This document shows, one piece after another, positions 1 to 24,778 of a stretch of 24,778 nt of DNA. How positions within the stretch are numbered: position 1 is the stretch's first letter; the number at the start of each line of letters is the position of its first letter. The notes beneath the pieces are model-generated. The model was not told where the DNA came from and did not search any database. It was given only the letters and a program-made list of their open reading frames with translations. The translations under genes were made by a program, and so were the position numbers. The DNA is from a virus, in the IMG/VR virus record IMGVR_UViG_3300047359_001620, positions 1 through 24,778 of that record. One strand, given 5' to 3'.

Positions 1-746
1 ATAGCGCTTGTTCCTCCGTTTACCCCATGTGTACCAGAATTGAAATCATAGAAATAAGTAGATGTGTCAGCTACATCACCAAACGCAGTTCGTCCATTTG
101 CACTGATGGTTAAAAATTCTTGGGCAGGTGATGTGCCACTGGCGCCAGTTGCGATACCAAAGTCTCCGGCAGCATCTATCCTTGACCTTGTCTTATGCAC
201 ATCCAATAAAGTTCCGGTACCCTGATGAACTAATCTTACATCAAAATCATCAGTTGTAGGTGATTTCAGGTCGATGTAAGATGTAGCCGATGCACCAATT
301 TCTATAGCTGAATTACCACTTGTGTTCTCAAGAGTAAGGCTGTTGGCACTTAAGTTTGACCCACCTGCTGGTCCTTGACGACCCTGTACACCTTGTGAGC
401 CAGTTGAACCTTGGGTGCCTGTTCCGGTTGTACCTTGGCGACCTTGAATACCCTGGCGACCCTGCACACCTTGAGCACCTGACCCACCTGTTGTTCCTTG
501 GCGACCTTGAATGCCCTGGCGACCCTGCGCTCCGGTTGCACCCTGAGGTCCACTTAGGTTGTAACTACCAGCGGTTAAGTCATTAACATCACCGATGGTG
601 GTGTTTAATTTACTTCTTAAATTCTCAAAATTACTGTCAACATCGTTGTGCGACAATGGATTGCCTCCAGAGTTTGCGCGAAGTTTAACATTACTACTTG
701 TGGGGGTAATTACCCCATCGTTTCCTAGATCGGTTATATTTGGCAT
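1..746 (-). CDS. Collagen-like phage fibre protein (partial, C-terminus beyond window)
   Basis: The frame is open from an ATG at 744-746 to the left edge, so about 248 residues of the N-terminal part are visible. Residues 1-65 form a head that includes [15 protein letters not shown], a pattern like the N-terminal region of the long fibre at 12759-14645. Residues 66-129 are mostly Gly-X-Y triplets such as [16 protein letters not shown], with a 14-residue block ([14 protein letters not shown]) repeated with a 21-residue period. A beta-rich region follows ([16 protein letters not shown]), like phage fibre shafts that carry simulated-structure repeats. Collagen-like triplets in phage proteins are known to form trimeric rods, so I infer a side or tail fibre. 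The gene sits 73 bases after the previous one and has the conserved motif 3 bases before its ATG. No good Shine-Dalgarno is visible. The fibre call is firm; its exact place on the virion is unknown. Confidence 0.85.
360..551 (-). repeat. Collagen-type Gly-X-Y coding repeat
   Basis: This stretch codes for about 21 Gly-X-Y triplets with one or two interruptions. At the DNA level it holds a 63-base imperfect tandem repeat, plus a third partial copy. It creates long open shadow frames on both strands that should not be called genes. Confidence 0.85.
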
Positions 747-19608: not shown

Positions 19609-21000
19609 CTACATTCCTAAAACTGACTCAAAGGCACTCTTCTTTGGCTGGCTTGGAGTTTCTGCGGGCGAGTTTCCTGGTCTTGGCTTTGATGCAACCT
19701 TGGGTGGCACTGCTCTTTTCTTTACCTGTGGCTTTTGCGCTTTAGGTTTTTGCTGTACCTGCCTTGCGTAACCAGATTTCTCAAGCAATTGTCTTTGTTG
19801 ATTGAGAGACTCGTTTATGCGTTGATTAGCTCTCATGGTAAGAATAGCTAACAAATCCGCATCGTTCCATGTGTAGTATGGAGCCCTTTTGTTTTCAGGT
19901 AACCTAAAGTACCTCTCCCTTCTCATGAAGGTTTTTCCATCCTGCTGTGTTTGACCGCTCTGTATAAAGTTTTCCTGCTCGGTGTTGACCCACTGCAAAA
20001 GCTTGGCGTGTATCGGATTATTCTCATCGTAGCTTACCATACCTTGGGTTATATCAAGTAGTAGGTCGCCCGTGTGGTGCAACTCTGTTGTGAGGGTGTT
20101 TACTATCTGAAATTCCAATGGATTTGTCTCAGCAAAGTTCTTAATAGACTCCTCATCCTTAACATGATCAGAAAGTTCTTTAGGTATAGCATTAACAGAA
20201 TATTCCCGAAACTCTGCCTTGTGGCCCTGCACAACCGGTGCCTTGCGAGCTTTCTCTTGCTCCATTCTTGCACGCTCTTTTTCAGGTGCCTGCTTCTCCT
20301 CGATTCTACGCATCGCCTCATGAACATTACGCTCACGCTCCACCTTCTTGATTGTGAACTGATCAAAGTCAGGTCGATTTTTTTGAATAAAAGCCTGGTA
20401 GTCCTCATCTTCTGATAAGTCTACATGTGGATCATCTTGTATTCTTTTCTCAATATACTTCTTTGTCTTTTGGAAGTAGTCCTTAAACTCCTTATCTTTC
20501 CCGACATAACCATCTAAATTATCGGAAGCGAATTTTGCTAAATCATAAATATCTTTTTCTTCGGGCAATAATCCGTCCACAAACTCCTTATCCGGATCCT
20601 CCTCGGGAAACGCATATTGTGGAGCCACCTCGGGTTGATCAATATCGGGATCAACAACTTGTTTTACTTTTTTCTTCTTGGCGGCCTTGGGTTTTGGTTG
20701 ATCTTTTCCAGGCTCTTCAGCAATTTCTTCCTCAACCTCTCCCTCTGGCTCAACTTCTTCCTCGGACTCCTCTTCTTCAGCTACGGGCTCACGGTCAAGT
20801 TCGTCAATAGCTGCATTTAAAGTTATTGGCTCGCCTAAATCTTCTTCAGGCTCTTCAGGTTCAGGCTCTTCTGCTGCTTCAAAGAGAGCATTAAATAATG
20901 AATTTCCTTGCTCCTGGGCAGGCTGTTCCTGCTCCGCAACTTCTTCAGTTGCTACTTCTTCTACTTCTTGCTCTACCTGTTCTTCCTGTTCTTCGCTCAT
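19609..21000 (-). CDS. Capsid scaffolding protein
   Basis: 463 residues. The first 130 are extremely rich in Glu and Asp (VEEVATEEVAEQEQPAQEQ, EPEPEEPEEDLGEP), then come helical and coiled-coil regions (NVHEAMRRIEEKQAPEKERA), and the C-terminus is basic and Pro/Lys-rich (KPKAQKPQVKKRAVPPK), ending KSAFESVLGM. An acidic, helical body with a basic coat-binding tail is the classic scaffold plan, and it lies between portal and capsid. The ATG overlaps the portal stop (ATGA). Confidence 0.85.
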   Translation of the reverse strand: MSEEQEEQVEQEVEEVATEEVAEQEQPAQEQGNSLFNALFEAAEEPEPEEPEEDLGEPITLNAAIDELDREPVAEEEESEEEVEPEGEVEEEIAEEPGKDQPKPKAAKKKKVKQVVDPDIDQPEVAPQYAFPEEDPDKEFVDGLLPEEKDIYDLAKFASDNLDGYVGKDKEFKDYFQKTKKYIEKRIQDDPHVDLSEDEDYQAFIQKNRPDFDQFTIKKVERERNVHEAMRRIEEKQAPEKERARMEQEKARKAPVVQGHKAEFREYSVNAIPKELSDHVKDEESIKNFAETNPLEFQIVNTLTTELHHTGDLLLDITQGMVSYDENNPIHAKLLQWVNTEQENFIQSGQTQQDGKTFMRRERYFRLPENKRAPYYTWNDADLLAILTMRANQRINESLNQQRQLLEKSGYARQVQQKPKAQKPQVKKRAVPPKVASKPRPGNSPAETPSQPKKSAFESVLGM

Positions 21001-23264
21001 AACTGTACTTGTTGTTCTGGACTTGTTTGTGGTTGTTGCTCTGGTTCCATTGATGGTGCCCCCGGAGGTGCTTCAGGTGACTCACTAGCTCCTGCTTGTT
21101 GCGCAACCTGCATTAACTGCTGAACTGCCTGTATAACCTGGGGCCACTGCTCCTTGAGTTGTGAAATGAATTGCTCGTTCTGCATGTCACCTATCTCTTG
21201 CTCTTGATCTGCTTCATCTGTATCTAGTCTCAGATCGTGTGCTCCTGATAGGCGGAATATCTCATTTAAGAATGTGAATATGCGATCCTTGCCAAGGGCT
21301 TGCGGGATACCTTCTACCTGCATCAAGCCTTGCAATGTTTGACTTAAAACCTGCGCAGACTGCGTGTCCCTTGCTCTTTCTGCACCATCCCTGCTTGTGA
21401 ATAAATACTCATGTATCAGGTTAGCCGGATCGCCAATGACATTACGTGCACTTGCTTCCGTTATTCCTTCCACCTCGGACTCAAAGCCTGCTTCCCTGAT
21501 TACTCTATCGGTATACCTTTGGCTAATCGGCACAGTAAACTTATCAGATGAACAAGATACCAAATGCTCGTAGAATAGCTTTTTTGCCGCAGCCCGCATA
21601 TCATCAATCCCCTCGGAAATAAATGAGTATATACTGTTTGTCGTATTTGCTATTTCGGCAACCTCTGTGGCACTAATCTCCCGAGGGGCGGGCTGACCAA
21701 GCTCCTGTGGAGACAAGATCAGCAACCGCTCGACGAGATTAAGCAACTGGAGGATTGCTTGGATTGACTGATTGATTCCAGCCGAAAGTTCCTTTTGTAC
21801 ATCTACAATTTGTATGAAATTGTTATTATTTATGCCTAAGTCTGCCGCTTTTTGACCTGAGTAAAATAGTGCTTTTGGTTTTGCGTAGAATGAGTCCTCA
21901 GCAAGTGCATCCTTGATATACTCTTTGACATCATCATCCAGTGCATCCTGATCGATGCAAAATATCTTCATCATGCTGACCTTCATGTCGTGAAGCATTT
22001 TGGTCATGATATTTGAAAGCTGATCCTGGAACGGCATGATCTCATGAGCTACCGATATATTTGCCATGCGATCATCGTTCTCATTAATTCCGCCGTATAT
22101 AGCAGGGAGTGATGGTAGATACTCTGCGTAAATAACTGTCTCATCACTTGCGACAGTAAGCTTGAGCCAAACATCGTGCGGATAATCTCCGAGGCCATCT
22201 CTTTTGGGATTTACCTTCATGCACATATTGGTGACGAACATCCCCTTGTCCTCGTCCTCAGATGAATAAACACCTACATTTTGTGTTCTTTCATTATGAA
22301 ACGGGTACTGATCTTGCGTCTTTGGAAACGACATGTTGTCGCTAAAGTAGTAATTAAAAAACTCAGCATAATCAGAGTAAAGAGAGTGCAAAGAGTTAGT
22401 GAAACTTATCTCATCTGAGTTCCATGTGGATGGGCTATTCTTAATGTCTCCGTATCTAACAATATCCCAGTACCCGATCCACTCTGGACCTTGATTAATG
22501 TTTAGGTCATGCAGGGGCTTTGATTGATCCCACACAACTCTTGTTGGATGAGGAGTCTTTAGTTTTACCCCCGACATCTCCGAGTAAGAAGATAAATCCT
22601 TTTCACCTGTCACGGGATCGGTGGTCTCTCTCCACTGTATGTCCTCCGTCCATGAGGTTTCAGGAAATGCAATAGAATGACCATACATAAACATTTGCCT
22701 GATAATCTGCTCCCACAAGTGACGATAACCAAACTGATCGGTCATCATTTCAACCCTCTGGGAAAGCACATCTGCGCGCACCTTGTCCTCTAATTGAGTG
22801 CTCCTTGGTTCATATTTGAAGTAAGGGTAAAGATTGCTAAACCTATGCACCTGCGCGGCAACCCTTCTTGTAACATAAGACCTGATTAAATTTACACTTA
22901 CCTCATAGAGTCTGAGTGTATTGATATTCTTCAGGTTACCTTCATCATCATACTCGCAAAACTCATCAGACTTGCTTACGCTAGAAAGATCCTCCTGGCA
23001 TTGCTCAATGGAAATTTTGCCCTGTGCATACTGTAATAACGGAATGGTCGCTTTATTGATAGGATTGCTGTCCCACGCAATATCTACGGACATATAAAGT
23101 TTTGCGTGTTTTGTTGAAAACCTTATCCCCTCTATGATTCTCGACTGAACCATGTCTTGGAACTTTTCTCGGGTTTCCGCATCCTTACCCTCTTCCGCAG
23201 TGAATATTTCCCTTAGGCGTGCTTGGGTGCAACCGTATCTCTCCAGTATGTCTAAATTAACCAT
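20997..23264 (-). CDS. Portal protein
   Basis: 755 residues, placed between the terminase-side genes and the scaffold. The N-terminal half has a helical start and the region RQMFMYGHSIAFPETSWTED near residues 185-210, typical of portals that carry a conserved aromatic/charged wing. The middle contains an ordered helical bundle region (INQSIQAILQLLNLVERLLI). The last 60 residues are Gln/Pro/Glu-rich and probably disordered (QAVQQLMQVAQQAGASESPE). The length is in the range of podovirus portals of the P22 and N4 classes. GGAG lies upstream of the ATG and the start follows the previous stop by one base. Confidence 0.8.
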   Translation of the reverse strand: MVNLDILERYGCTQARLREIFTAEEGKDAETREKFQDMVQSRIIEGIRFSTKHAKLYMSVDIAWDSNPINKATIPLLQYAQGKISIEQCQEDLSSVSKSDEFCEYDDEGNLKNINTLRLYEVSVNLIRSYVTRRVAAQVHRFSNLYPYFKYEPRSTQLEDKVRADVLSQRVEMMTDQFGYRHLWEQIIRQMFMYGHSIAFPETSWTEDIQWRETTDPVTGEKDLSSYSEMSGVKLKTPHPTRVVWDQSKPLHDLNINQGPEWIGYWDIVRYGDIKNSPSTWNSDEISFTNSLHSLYSDYAEFFNYYFSDNMSFPKTQDQYPFHNERTQNVGVYSSEDEDKGMFVTNMCMKVNPKRDGLGDYPHDVWLKLTVASDETVIYAEYLPSLPAIYGGINENDDRMANISVAHEIMPFQDQLSNIMTKMLHDMKVSMMKIFCIDQDALDDDVKEYIKDALAEDSFYAKPKALFYSGQKAADLGINNNNFIQIVDVQKELSAGINQSIQAILQLLNLVERLLILSPQELGQPAPREISATEVAEIANTTNSIYSFISEGIDDMRAAAKKLFYEHLVSCSSDKFTVPISQRYTDRVIREAGFESEVEGITEASARNVIGDPANLIHEYLFTSRDGAERARDTQSAQVLSQTLQGLMQVEGIPQALGKDRIFTFLNEIFRLSGAHDLRLDTDEADQEQEIGDMQNEQFISQLKEQWPQVIQAVQQLMQVAQQAGASESPEAPPGAPSMEPEQQPQTSPEQQVQL

Positions 23265-23265
23265 T

Positions 23266-23592
23266 TTATTTCTCCGTAAAATCGAATATGTTTTTTATTG
23301 GGTCAGGTACCCAGTTCTGCATAAATTGACCCTCGATCACGGAAAGCAATATACATGCTGACATGGGAAGAGGTTTTGTTTTGTTTATCTTCAAATCAAG
23401 ATTATCGACTCCTATGAGCGTGCCTAGCTCCGCATAAGTCATGCGCAGGAACGAGCACATCCGCTCTACCCTTTTTTTATCCCAGATCTTAGGAAGTCCA
23501 AGGCGCGCGTAGTGACACTTGATAAGAACTGAAGCAGTTGTCTCATCATCACTCTTCCTCTTCTTCGTCTTCCCCTTCTTCTGGGCTTTCAT
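23266..23592 (-). CDS. Small protein with possible helix-turn-helix region
   Basis: 108 residues. The N-terminus is strongly basic (MKAQKKGKTKKRKSDDE). Residues about 46-90 (MCSFLRMTYAELGTLIGVDN, then LPMSACILLSVIEGQF) resemble a Cro/C1-type helix-turn-helix in spacing, so DNA binding, for instance as a small terminase subunit or regulator, is possible. Sitting next to the large terminase makes a small-terminase role worth testing, but the match is weak. The start overlaps the upstream gene by 44 bases. Confidence 0.6.
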   Translation of the reverse strand: MKAQKKGKTKKRKSDDETTASVLIKCHYARLGLPKIWDKKRVERMCSFLRMTYAELGTLIGVDNLDLKINKTKPLPMSACILLSVIEGQFMQNWVPDPIKNIFDFTEK

Positions 23593-23758
23593 CGCTTTCT
23601 AATGAGGTGATTGAGATGATATTCTCCAAAGGCATGGCTGCGCGGTTTTCCGATAATTCACTTATCGAAAGTTCTGCAGTTACCTTAACCTTATCCCCCA
23701 CAGACATTCCCTCAAAATCCTCCAATAGCTCTGGATTATTCTTAAGGTCTATTGACAT
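23549..23758 (-). CDS. Small acidic protein
   Basis: 69 residues from ATG at 23756-23758. GGAAAG lies just before it, whereas an upstream ATG (23770) and a TTG (23806) have poorer sites, so this start is preferred. It begins MSIDLKNNPELLEDFEGMSV and has a KVKVTAELSISEL strand region and a highly acidic end (SDESPEEGEDEEEEE). No family is recognised. It lies between terminase and portal genes, a place often used for small packaging or head-maturation proteins. Confidence 0.6.
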   Translation of the reverse strand: MSIDLKNNPELLEDFEGMSVGDKVKVTAELSISELSENRAAMPLENIISITSLESDESPEEGEDEEEEE

Positions 23759-23802
23759 AATGCTTTCCATAAAGTGTAACTTAGGATTTATTGTAACTAA
23801 AA

Positions 23803-24778
23803 TCAAGTCCCTAATTCAATGATCTCGGAACCGCTTGTTCTTCCTACATCTATATAGTGGGTTGATTCGTGATAAATTATTGGATAACTCATTGCATCAA
23901 AGGCATGTATGTAAACACTTCTCCTGGGTTTAAAGGCAACATTAGGGTCATATGTTTTGCCAGGTTTCTCTGAAACAAGGTTGCGAAACATCTTTGAACA
24001 ATTCACGCAAGGTACGGACATTACAAACTCCTCGGAACTAAGTTTCGCTATCATCAACCTCACCCTCGCTTCAACCGATCCACTAAACTTGGGTGCTGCT
24101 TTCATGCGTATTGGCTCGAGCTTAAAAGTATCGCTCTTTGCTTTGGATATTTCCTCAATGTCCCTTACATCATAGGAGCCCGTCTTCGCCCTATATTGAT
24201 TAAATGCAGAGTTATCGGAGATGTGTATAAACTTAAACTTATGCTTCATCCTTCGATTCCAATACGCCATCTTGCGCATAATCATTGGGATAAGAGTTGT
24301 GTAGGGTAGCTTCTTATTGATTACCACAAACTCATCGAATACACTCCATATTGTTTTGTCCGCACCAGGCAATGCCTGCATGAAGATTACGGCATTATTG
24401 ACAGAACCCGGATCCCAACCGCATATTATCGGATATTTAGTGGATGGCAGTATTCCGCTTTTGGCATCTCCCCGCAAGTGTAGTGTTTTATTAAAGTAGG
24501 GGCCGAATATCGCATCCCCCGCAGGGCGATCAATCCACTCACCTCTTACCATCCGAGCCTCCTCAACGGGATCGGACTTAACTGCTTCAAGAATCCTATC
24601 GTAATAACCCAATGGTAGGTTATCTACATTCTCTTTAATTGGTACATGGTAGGTGGAATAGTCGTTATTCCAATTTCCGTCCTTGTCATAGGGCTCCTCA
24701 AAAAATCTTTTATACACCCAATGACTCGGTCCATCGGGGTTGCAGGCGGCAAGATACTGTTGCGGGCCGTGGATTCCT
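23803..24778 (-). CDS. terL: Terminase large subunit (partial; N-terminal ATPase beyond window)
   Basis: The frame is open to the right edge and about 324 C-terminal residues are visible. The start at the window edge reads AACNPDGPSHWVYKRFF, the coupling motif that follows the ATPase in this family. The nuclease domain is intact: GWDPGS, ISDNSA and IHAFDAMSYP supply the three acidic metal ligands (Asp codons near 24412, 24214 and 23896). It drives DNA packaging by cutting and translocating phage DNA into the procapsid through the portal. The GTG at 24715-24717 is internal, not the real start. Two Cys (CVNC) lie before the last Asp. Confidence 0.95.
   Translation of the reverse strand, partial: GIHGPQQYLAACNPDGPSHWVYKRFFEEPYDKDGNWNNDYSTYHVPIKENVDNLPLGYYDRILEAVKSDPVEEARMVRGEWIDRPAGDAIFGPYFNKTLHLRGDAKSGILPSTKYPIICGWDPGSVNNAVIFMQALPGADKTIWSVFDEFVVINKKLPYTTLIPMIMRKMAYWNRRMKHKFKFIHISDNSAFNQYRAKTGSYDVRDIEEISKAKSDTFKLEPIRMKAAPKFSGSVEARVRLMIAKLSSEEFVMSVPCVNCSKMFRNLVSEKPGKTYDPNVAFKPRRSVYIHAFDAMSYPIIYHESTHYIDVGRTSGSEIIELGT

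Follow-up and report, generated by a model that had tools for sequence, protein, structure and literature searches.

Gene organization of the window

The window analysed in this study is the whole 24.8-kb stretch of the virus record IMGVR_UViG_3300047359_001620 (positions 1 to 24,778). On its minus strand we found, in this order, the gene for the terminase large subunit, two small genes which we call gene A and gene B, the portal gene, and genes for a 463-aa and a 631-aa protein. The terminase gene is cut by the window end, so that only the C-terminal part of the protein is encoded (23803..24777, minus strand), and its match to the Pfam family Terminase_3 (E 1.3e-4, 22 bits) was slightly below the cut-off of 23.2. 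A full-length terminase ORF is, however, present in the related locus L007 (L-numbers denote related loci, mainly IMG/VR contigs) and matched annotated terminases, with 40 phage records found and 21-29% identity among the 15 matches listed of these 40. The portal gene (20997..23264, minus strand) begins immediately past the stop codon of gene B and its product matched PHROG 6547, portal, with an E-value of 1.7e-6. The acidic 463-aa protein is probably the scaffold and the 631-aa protein is probably the capsid protein, as judged by position and size. At the other end of the window (3-746) there is an ORF with collagen-like G-x-x repeats, which resembles a fibre protein, a label given from reading the translation only.

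Gene A (23549..23770, minus strand) encodes 73 residues, with a small beta domain at residues ~1-58 followed by a disordered acidic C-terminal tail ending in ...SDESPEEGEDEEEEE*, with the stop codon at 23549. In the ORF table the gene starts with TTG at 23806; the start conserved in relatives is ATG at 23770 (MESI...), and this is the one used here. Gene B (23266..23592, minus strand) starts with ATG at 23592 and encodes 108 residues, with a basic, disordered N-terminal arm (residues ~1-14, beginning MKAQKKGKTKKRKS) and a predicted five-helix helix-turn-helix (HTH) domain of the Cro/C1 type. The two genes share 44 nt including the stop codon of gene A (23549..23592, minus strand), and the frame of gene B is +1 relative to that of gene A. 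Both ORFs lie as described in the original prediction, and a single A/G-rich run indeed serves two frames, encoding the acidic end of the A protein (DESPEEGEDEEEEE*) and the basic start of the B protein (MKAQKKGKTKKRKS).

Directly upstream of the gene A ATG we noticed the element TAAATCCTAAGTTACA (23775..23790, minus strand), a putative promoter or initiation signal. Many of the 39 upstream regions listed carry the motif TAAGTTAC, or a close variant of it, at the same position, and a Shine-Dalgarno-like 4-mer was found upstream of the gene A start in none of 39 loci. The whole 16-mer TAAATCCTAAGTTACA has a single exact copy in the window and one further copy with 3 mismatches, and the 8-mer AAGTTACA has three copies, a count reached by 6 of 100 shuffles. 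Both results speak against reading the element as a repeated promoter.

Predicted products of genes A and B

The predicted model of the A protein (mean pLDDT 81.0) combines the small beta domain and a short helix with a tail of low confidence, where residues 61-66 fall below 50. Searches of the window protein against Pfam and PHROG gave no match, and sequence comparison with the PDB gave nothing convincing (best E 0.054). The structure search against the PDB aligned 80 chains, none with Z >= 2, and that in BFVD gave one match below 0.001, the nameless A0A516MLW7 (E 1.7e-4). Among the relatives, 7 of 41 gene A members matched PHROG 4932, a family of phage single-strand DNA binding proteins (SSBs), with a best E-value of 6.2e-5. 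After the tail had been removed from all 41 members, only insignificant matches were obtained, to PHROG 4932 for 2 members (best E 0.073) and to PHROG 1278 for 4 (best E 0.065), which indicates that most of the score came from the acidic composition. An earlier tail-removed test with 9 members (not known to include the 7 matching ones) had given no match to PHROG 4932. Like the phage SSBs of PHROG 4932 and PHROG 1278, gene A couples a small beta domain to an acidic tail; it differs from them in that its tail-less matches are insignificant and that the protein of the window itself matches neither family. The tail-removed searches weaken the assignment of gene A as an SSB; the protein may still be SSB-like, with its acidic tail and possibly an OB-fold core related to that of phage SSBs.

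For the B protein the model (mean pLDDT 84.8) shows helices at residues 19-31, 39-49, 53-60, 65-70 and 77-90 and a low-confidence arm. The list of structural matches consisted mostly of Cro/C1-type HTH proteins, with regulators and antitoxins on top: the best was HigA2 (5jaa; Z 6.3, rmsd 2.7, 62 residues) and the second was MqsA (3gn5; Z 6.0, rmsd 2.4, 56 residues), and Z values around 6 may mean a common helix arrangement only. Foldseek matches had E-values above 1, in Pfam 1 of 20 members gave a weak match to HTH_26 (E 0.047), and the sequence comparison with the PDB gave nothing convincing (best E 0.0049). The predicted helical core (residues ~29-100) would be like that of the Cro/C1-type regulators and antitoxins (HigA2, MqsA, P22 c2, 434 Cro, phage Aca2); however, a sequence relation is undetectable at usual thresholds and, unlike those proteins, gene B lies between terminase and portal and has a basic arm encoded within the upstream gene. 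Judged from the model, gene B probably encodes a DNA-binding protein. In L007, an ORF ahead of the terminase large subunit (1396-2076) has an HTH-like N-terminus and, from reading only, could be the small terminase, which makes it less likely that gene B is the small terminase subunit. A tblastn comparison of gene A, gene B and the portal with 50,697 phage records gave no match.

Conservation of the overlap among relatives

Relatives were collected in scans of IMG/VR with gene B (8 loci), with the portal as an anchor (28 loci) and with an alignment of B proteins (69 loci), in sets which overlap. We read 72 loci, namely 67 of the 69 from the alignment scan together with L007, L008, L028, L029 and L031; L048 and L049 were left out, as the same contigs were read as L023 and L024, in which the overlap is present. 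A non-redundant set of 41 loci, the window included, was chosen at less than 93% identity in gene A. In the relatives a gene A homologue was found immediately upstream of the gene B homologue, and of the 28 portal loci 24 were read (near-copies, L015 and L016, L005 and L037, being left out), all with both genes between terminase and portal; the L033 locus begins past the terminase.

The frame of gene B was open into the acidic tail of gene A in 67 of the 72 loci, and in 63 of these 67 an ATG, GTG or TTG for gene B lies inside the tail. With ATG preferred and starts sought within 92 nt of the gene A stop codon, the first start of gene B in the 41 non-redundant loci was ATG in 33, GTG in 6, TTG in one and none of these in one. 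An overlap was found in 40 of the 41; among the 40 non-redundant loci with a start its length ranged from 8 to 92 nt (median 71). A Shine-Dalgarno-like 4-mer was present upstream of the gene B start in only 14 of 39. Two loci that were read after the codon rule described below had been stated, L114 and L115, show the same overlap. The conservation of both frames in relatives, which the original prediction had named as a check, was confirmed.

The five exceptions among the 72 loci are the pair L007/L008, with an overlap of 8 nt, L078 (the same as L036), in which the genes are fused, and L060 and L102, with an indel in the tract. Disruption of one frame in close relatives, given as the refuting observation in the original prediction, was seen only as tract indels in three of the 72 loci (L060, L078 and L102), each of them possibly an assembly error. 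In the four loci L050-L053 no ATG, GTG or TTG precedes the conserved core of gene B in its frame; at the place of the relatives' start stands a CTG, and an ATG for gene B could be obtained there by a change silent in gene A. These loci may imply that the start of gene B is weak, non-canonical or of another kind.

The gene B product of L007/L008 is 39% identical to that of the window over residues 18-106. In this pair the acidic tail of gene A is retained, and gene B begins MINGEATS without a basic start. L007 forms the deepest branch of the portal tree (33 rows; 2.53 changes per column); the tree is midpoint-rooted and the placement of this long branch is unsure. The acidic tail of gene A could have come first, the start of gene B having moved into it later; this polarity is tentative because it is drawn from a single lineage on a long branch of unsure place.

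As a separate observation from a scan of a genome collection, L113 sits in a metagenome bin titled uncultured archaeon (G001; contigs C40, C46 and C67), in which three distinct portal genes of the family are present. The bin may be a collection of viral contigs or may give a hint of the host; we claim no host.

Origin of the opposite charges

Acidic codons read in the +1 frame give basic or uncharged residues, as GAN-GAN becomes ANG-ANG, which can encode Lys, Arg, Thr or Met and can never be a stop codon; GAT before G yields an ATG start. To set the observed charges against this effect of the code, we kept the A protein fixed and redrew its codons from the codon usage of the window in 20-codon tails. 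The mean charge of the gene B frame was +7.97 in the observed tails and +7.70 in the reshuffled ones (33 tails, including that of L007, from the non-redundant set of 41). On average, 21% of reshuffled tails contained a stop codon in the gene B frame; in several loci the 20-codon windows reach non-acidic residues, so the frame is open at no cost only inside the acidic run itself. Methionine codons of the gene B frame were rarer than expected (0.69 per tail observed vs 2.27; 32 tails, L007 left out).

The basicity of the B protein also ends about where gene A ends. Its net charge per residue was +0.39 in the part encoded by the overlap (830 residues) vs -0.12 in the linker between the gene A stop and the first helix of B (177 residues; 40 of 41 loci, L050 having no start, and with the linker of L079 and L086 unmeasured). 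Once the tail of gene A is acidic, the opposite charges go no further than the effect of the code, and the pairing of charges is a by-product. As the code imposes the sign, the pairing is uninformative on binding between the A and B proteins. The suggestion that the two small products attract each other was thus not borne out: the code dictates the sign, the basicity stops about at the gene A stop, and L007/L008 have the acidic tail without the basic arm. On the present sequence evidence, mutual binding of A and B would have no specific support. The same suggestion had offered different partners as an alternative, with DNA for the basic product, and of this the DNA side is in keeping with the predicted HTH of gene B.

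Codon choice in the overlap

Codon choice was compared in 39 of the 41 non-redundant loci (L007 and L095 were left out, and the start of L050 was set by hand). For Asp codons followed by G and lying past the first start of gene B, we counted 102 GAC and 17 GAT, vs 471 GAC and 1531 GAT in the remaining long ORFs of these 39 loci, where GAT makes up about three quarters. Such Asp codons occur in 36 loci, and the GAT fraction was reduced in 35 of them, the exception being L058, with one codon. Glu codons before G were GAA in 212 and GAG in 48 cases, vs 1375 and 1007 in the other long ORFs, and the GAA fraction was raised in 35 of 39 loci. The Fisher P-value (1.6e-43 for Asp) counts related codons as independent and is to be read as strong, not literally.

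Acid-rich stretches without overlap served as a control. Considering only codons before GAN, Asp in these stretches was GAT in 63 and GAC in 24 cases, vs 17 GAT and 98 GAC in the overlap, and a smaller Asp control with codons before G (16 loci) gave 18 GAT and 8 GAC. For Glu the control gave 113 GAA and 85 GAG, vs 180 and 44 in the overlap; part of the GAA shift is visible in the acid-rich controls as well. The final 35 codons of gene A in L007, which has no long overlap, contain 7 GAT and one GAC for Asp before G. The excess of GAC is silent in gene A and removes further ATG codons from the other frame, and gene B thus looks truly translated there.

The position of the change in codon choice bears on the start of gene B. 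In L114 every Asp codon before G past the gene B start is GAC. In L115 GAT codons continue as far as the last ATG, beyond which such codons are all GAC; this suggests that the true start in this subgroup is the last ATG. Its relative L089 has 7 GAT past the first ATG, and the first ATG of both L115 and L089 may not be a real start.

Variability by codon position was determined in 14 loci of one subgroup, with the tails aligned without gaps from the stop codon; the shifted tail of L066 adds noise. Third codon positions of gene A had a variability of 0.297 in the overlap vs 0.519 upstream, and third positions of gene B, which are first positions of gene A, had 0.244 in the overlap vs 0.479 downstream. 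The second positions of gene B were about threefold more variable in the overlap than in the rest of the gene (0.297 vs 0.103); for the first and second positions of gene A the values were 0.244 and 0.200 in the overlap vs 0.203 and 0.131 in the rest of gene A. Both frames are therefore constrained, and that of gene B is the more relaxed one. The synonymous-site constraint that had been proposed as a check on the overlap was found, and it is strong. Homologues of both genes, reduced synonymous variation and the avoidance of ATG together indicate, at the level of sequence, that both overlapping frames are protein-coding and that the overlap is genuine, has long been maintained and is constrained in both frames.

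Discussion

We interpret A and B as separately initiated phage genes, with the start of gene B placed in the acidic tail of gene A, with the synonymous codons of gene A constrained by it and with the opposite charges as a by-product. We give this reading a probability of about 0.8. From the tail of gene A would come the start codon, the open reading frame and the basic arm of gene B, while the A protein stays unchanged. Where gene B is read, Asp is written as GAC, which is Thr in gene B, and not as GAT, which would give Met and an additional start, and Glu is mostly GAA, which is Lys in gene B, and not GAG, which would give Arg (AGG). Both genes would be translated from one mRNA, and ribosomes finishing gene A near the start of gene B could couple the translation of gene B to that of gene A through the overlap. 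The arm may add a non-specific DNA contact to the predicted HTH of the B protein, and the tail of A and the arm of B would act separately. The overlap recurs in 40 of the 41 non-redundant loci and much of the arm sequence is preserved in one subgroup, so the arm may also be selected for itself, beyond being tolerated.

Alternatively, A could bind B through its tail, with the arm of B as the partner, and so mask or load the DNA-binding face of B, and the overlap would keep tail and arm matched in length. In 67 of 72 loci the two genes stay adjacent and the tail and the arm correspond, both segments have low confidence in the models, as disordered parts do, and in L036/L078, on a 57-kb contig, a deletion of 1 nt in a GACGAA repeat puts both genes in one frame. 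However, the match in charge and length comes from the code regardless of function, and in L007/L008 the acidic tail stands beside a relative of gene B that lacks the basic arm. The fusion, moreover, depends on a single base in a repeat: L036/L078 is otherwise identical over 6,593 bases to L035, neither L035/L076 nor L077, with a tail identical to theirs, is fused, and the fusion may be an assembly error. We consider such a partnership unlikely. The same L007/L008 pair, with its acidic tail and no overlapping arm, argues against the view that selection acts on the basic arm of B, with the acidic tail of A as the by-product. The presence of the arm in 40 of the 41 non-redundant loci, with a sequence partly conserved in one subgroup, counts in favour of this view; however, the second positions of gene B are about three times more variable in the overlap and the first and second positions of gene A only somewhat more, so that gene B has the more relaxed frame, and we regard the view as quite improbable.

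Programmed frameshifting (+1 or -2) in the A/G-rich run could also lead ribosomes from gene A into gene B, with a fusion of A and B as a minor product. Such a mechanism would agree with the +1 position of the gene B frame in intact loci and would account for L050-L053, which have no conventional start, and L036 demonstrates that encoding a fused product is possible. Against it, 63 of the 72 loci have an ATG, GTG or TTG for gene B in the tail, often with a stop codon of that frame shortly before, the sequence around the gene A stop varies between subgroups with no conserved shift context (by eye), and the excess of GAC past the gene B start fits independent initiation. Frameshifting is thus very improbable here, and separate initiation of gene B within the tail of gene A is the reading we retain.

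Long same-strand overlaps of bacterial genes in phase 1 (+1) are a known class. PMC2542354 explains them by a compositional model which does not invoke selection, and in which the downstream start arises from a NAT codon before GNN in the upstream gene, Asp being among the NAT amino acids. The A/B overlap is like this class in being of phase 1, in its NAT-GNN start and in a downstream gene that begins inside the upstream one, shifted by one base (67 of 72 loci and the window). It is unlike the class, as described there, in that the upstream end is an acidic tail, so that the downstream N-terminus is basic and free of stop codons, and in that it persists throughout a diverse phage family, where codon constraint can be measured in both frames. 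The A/B overlap therefore belongs to the known +1 class, and what is special to it is the mirror of charges that comes from an acidic tail and the family-wide persistence with a codon signature. PMC8227390 reports that de novo viral proteins in the +1 frame are depleted in acidic residues, and in the passages of PMC9164415 considered here the words 'charge' and 'acidic' did not occur. Literature searches, with subscription journals mostly outside their coverage, returned among the matches listed no work on this overlap or on the acidic-to-basic effect in phages; nor was there, among the matches listed, any on acidic proteins beside terminase and portal.

More broadly, acidic C-terminal tails might serve as nurseries of overlaps, offering the next gene, in the +1 frame, a start, a basic DNA-binding arm and a frame without stops, free of cost to the tail itself, and in the present family the tail and the arm might then have become a mutually binding pair which stays neutralised until packaging; we hold this to be distinctly unlikely. 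On the reading preferred here, of two separately initiated genes, the family would provide a clean natural case in which the reading frame of a neighbour sets the sign of a protein's charge, and a family-wide test of constrained codon choices. Charge complementarity between the products of overlapping genes would then be no evidence of binding unless the effect of the code is subtracted, and the choice of GAC vs GAT before G, through the avoidance of ATG, may serve as a simple test of second-frame translation beneath any acidic tail.
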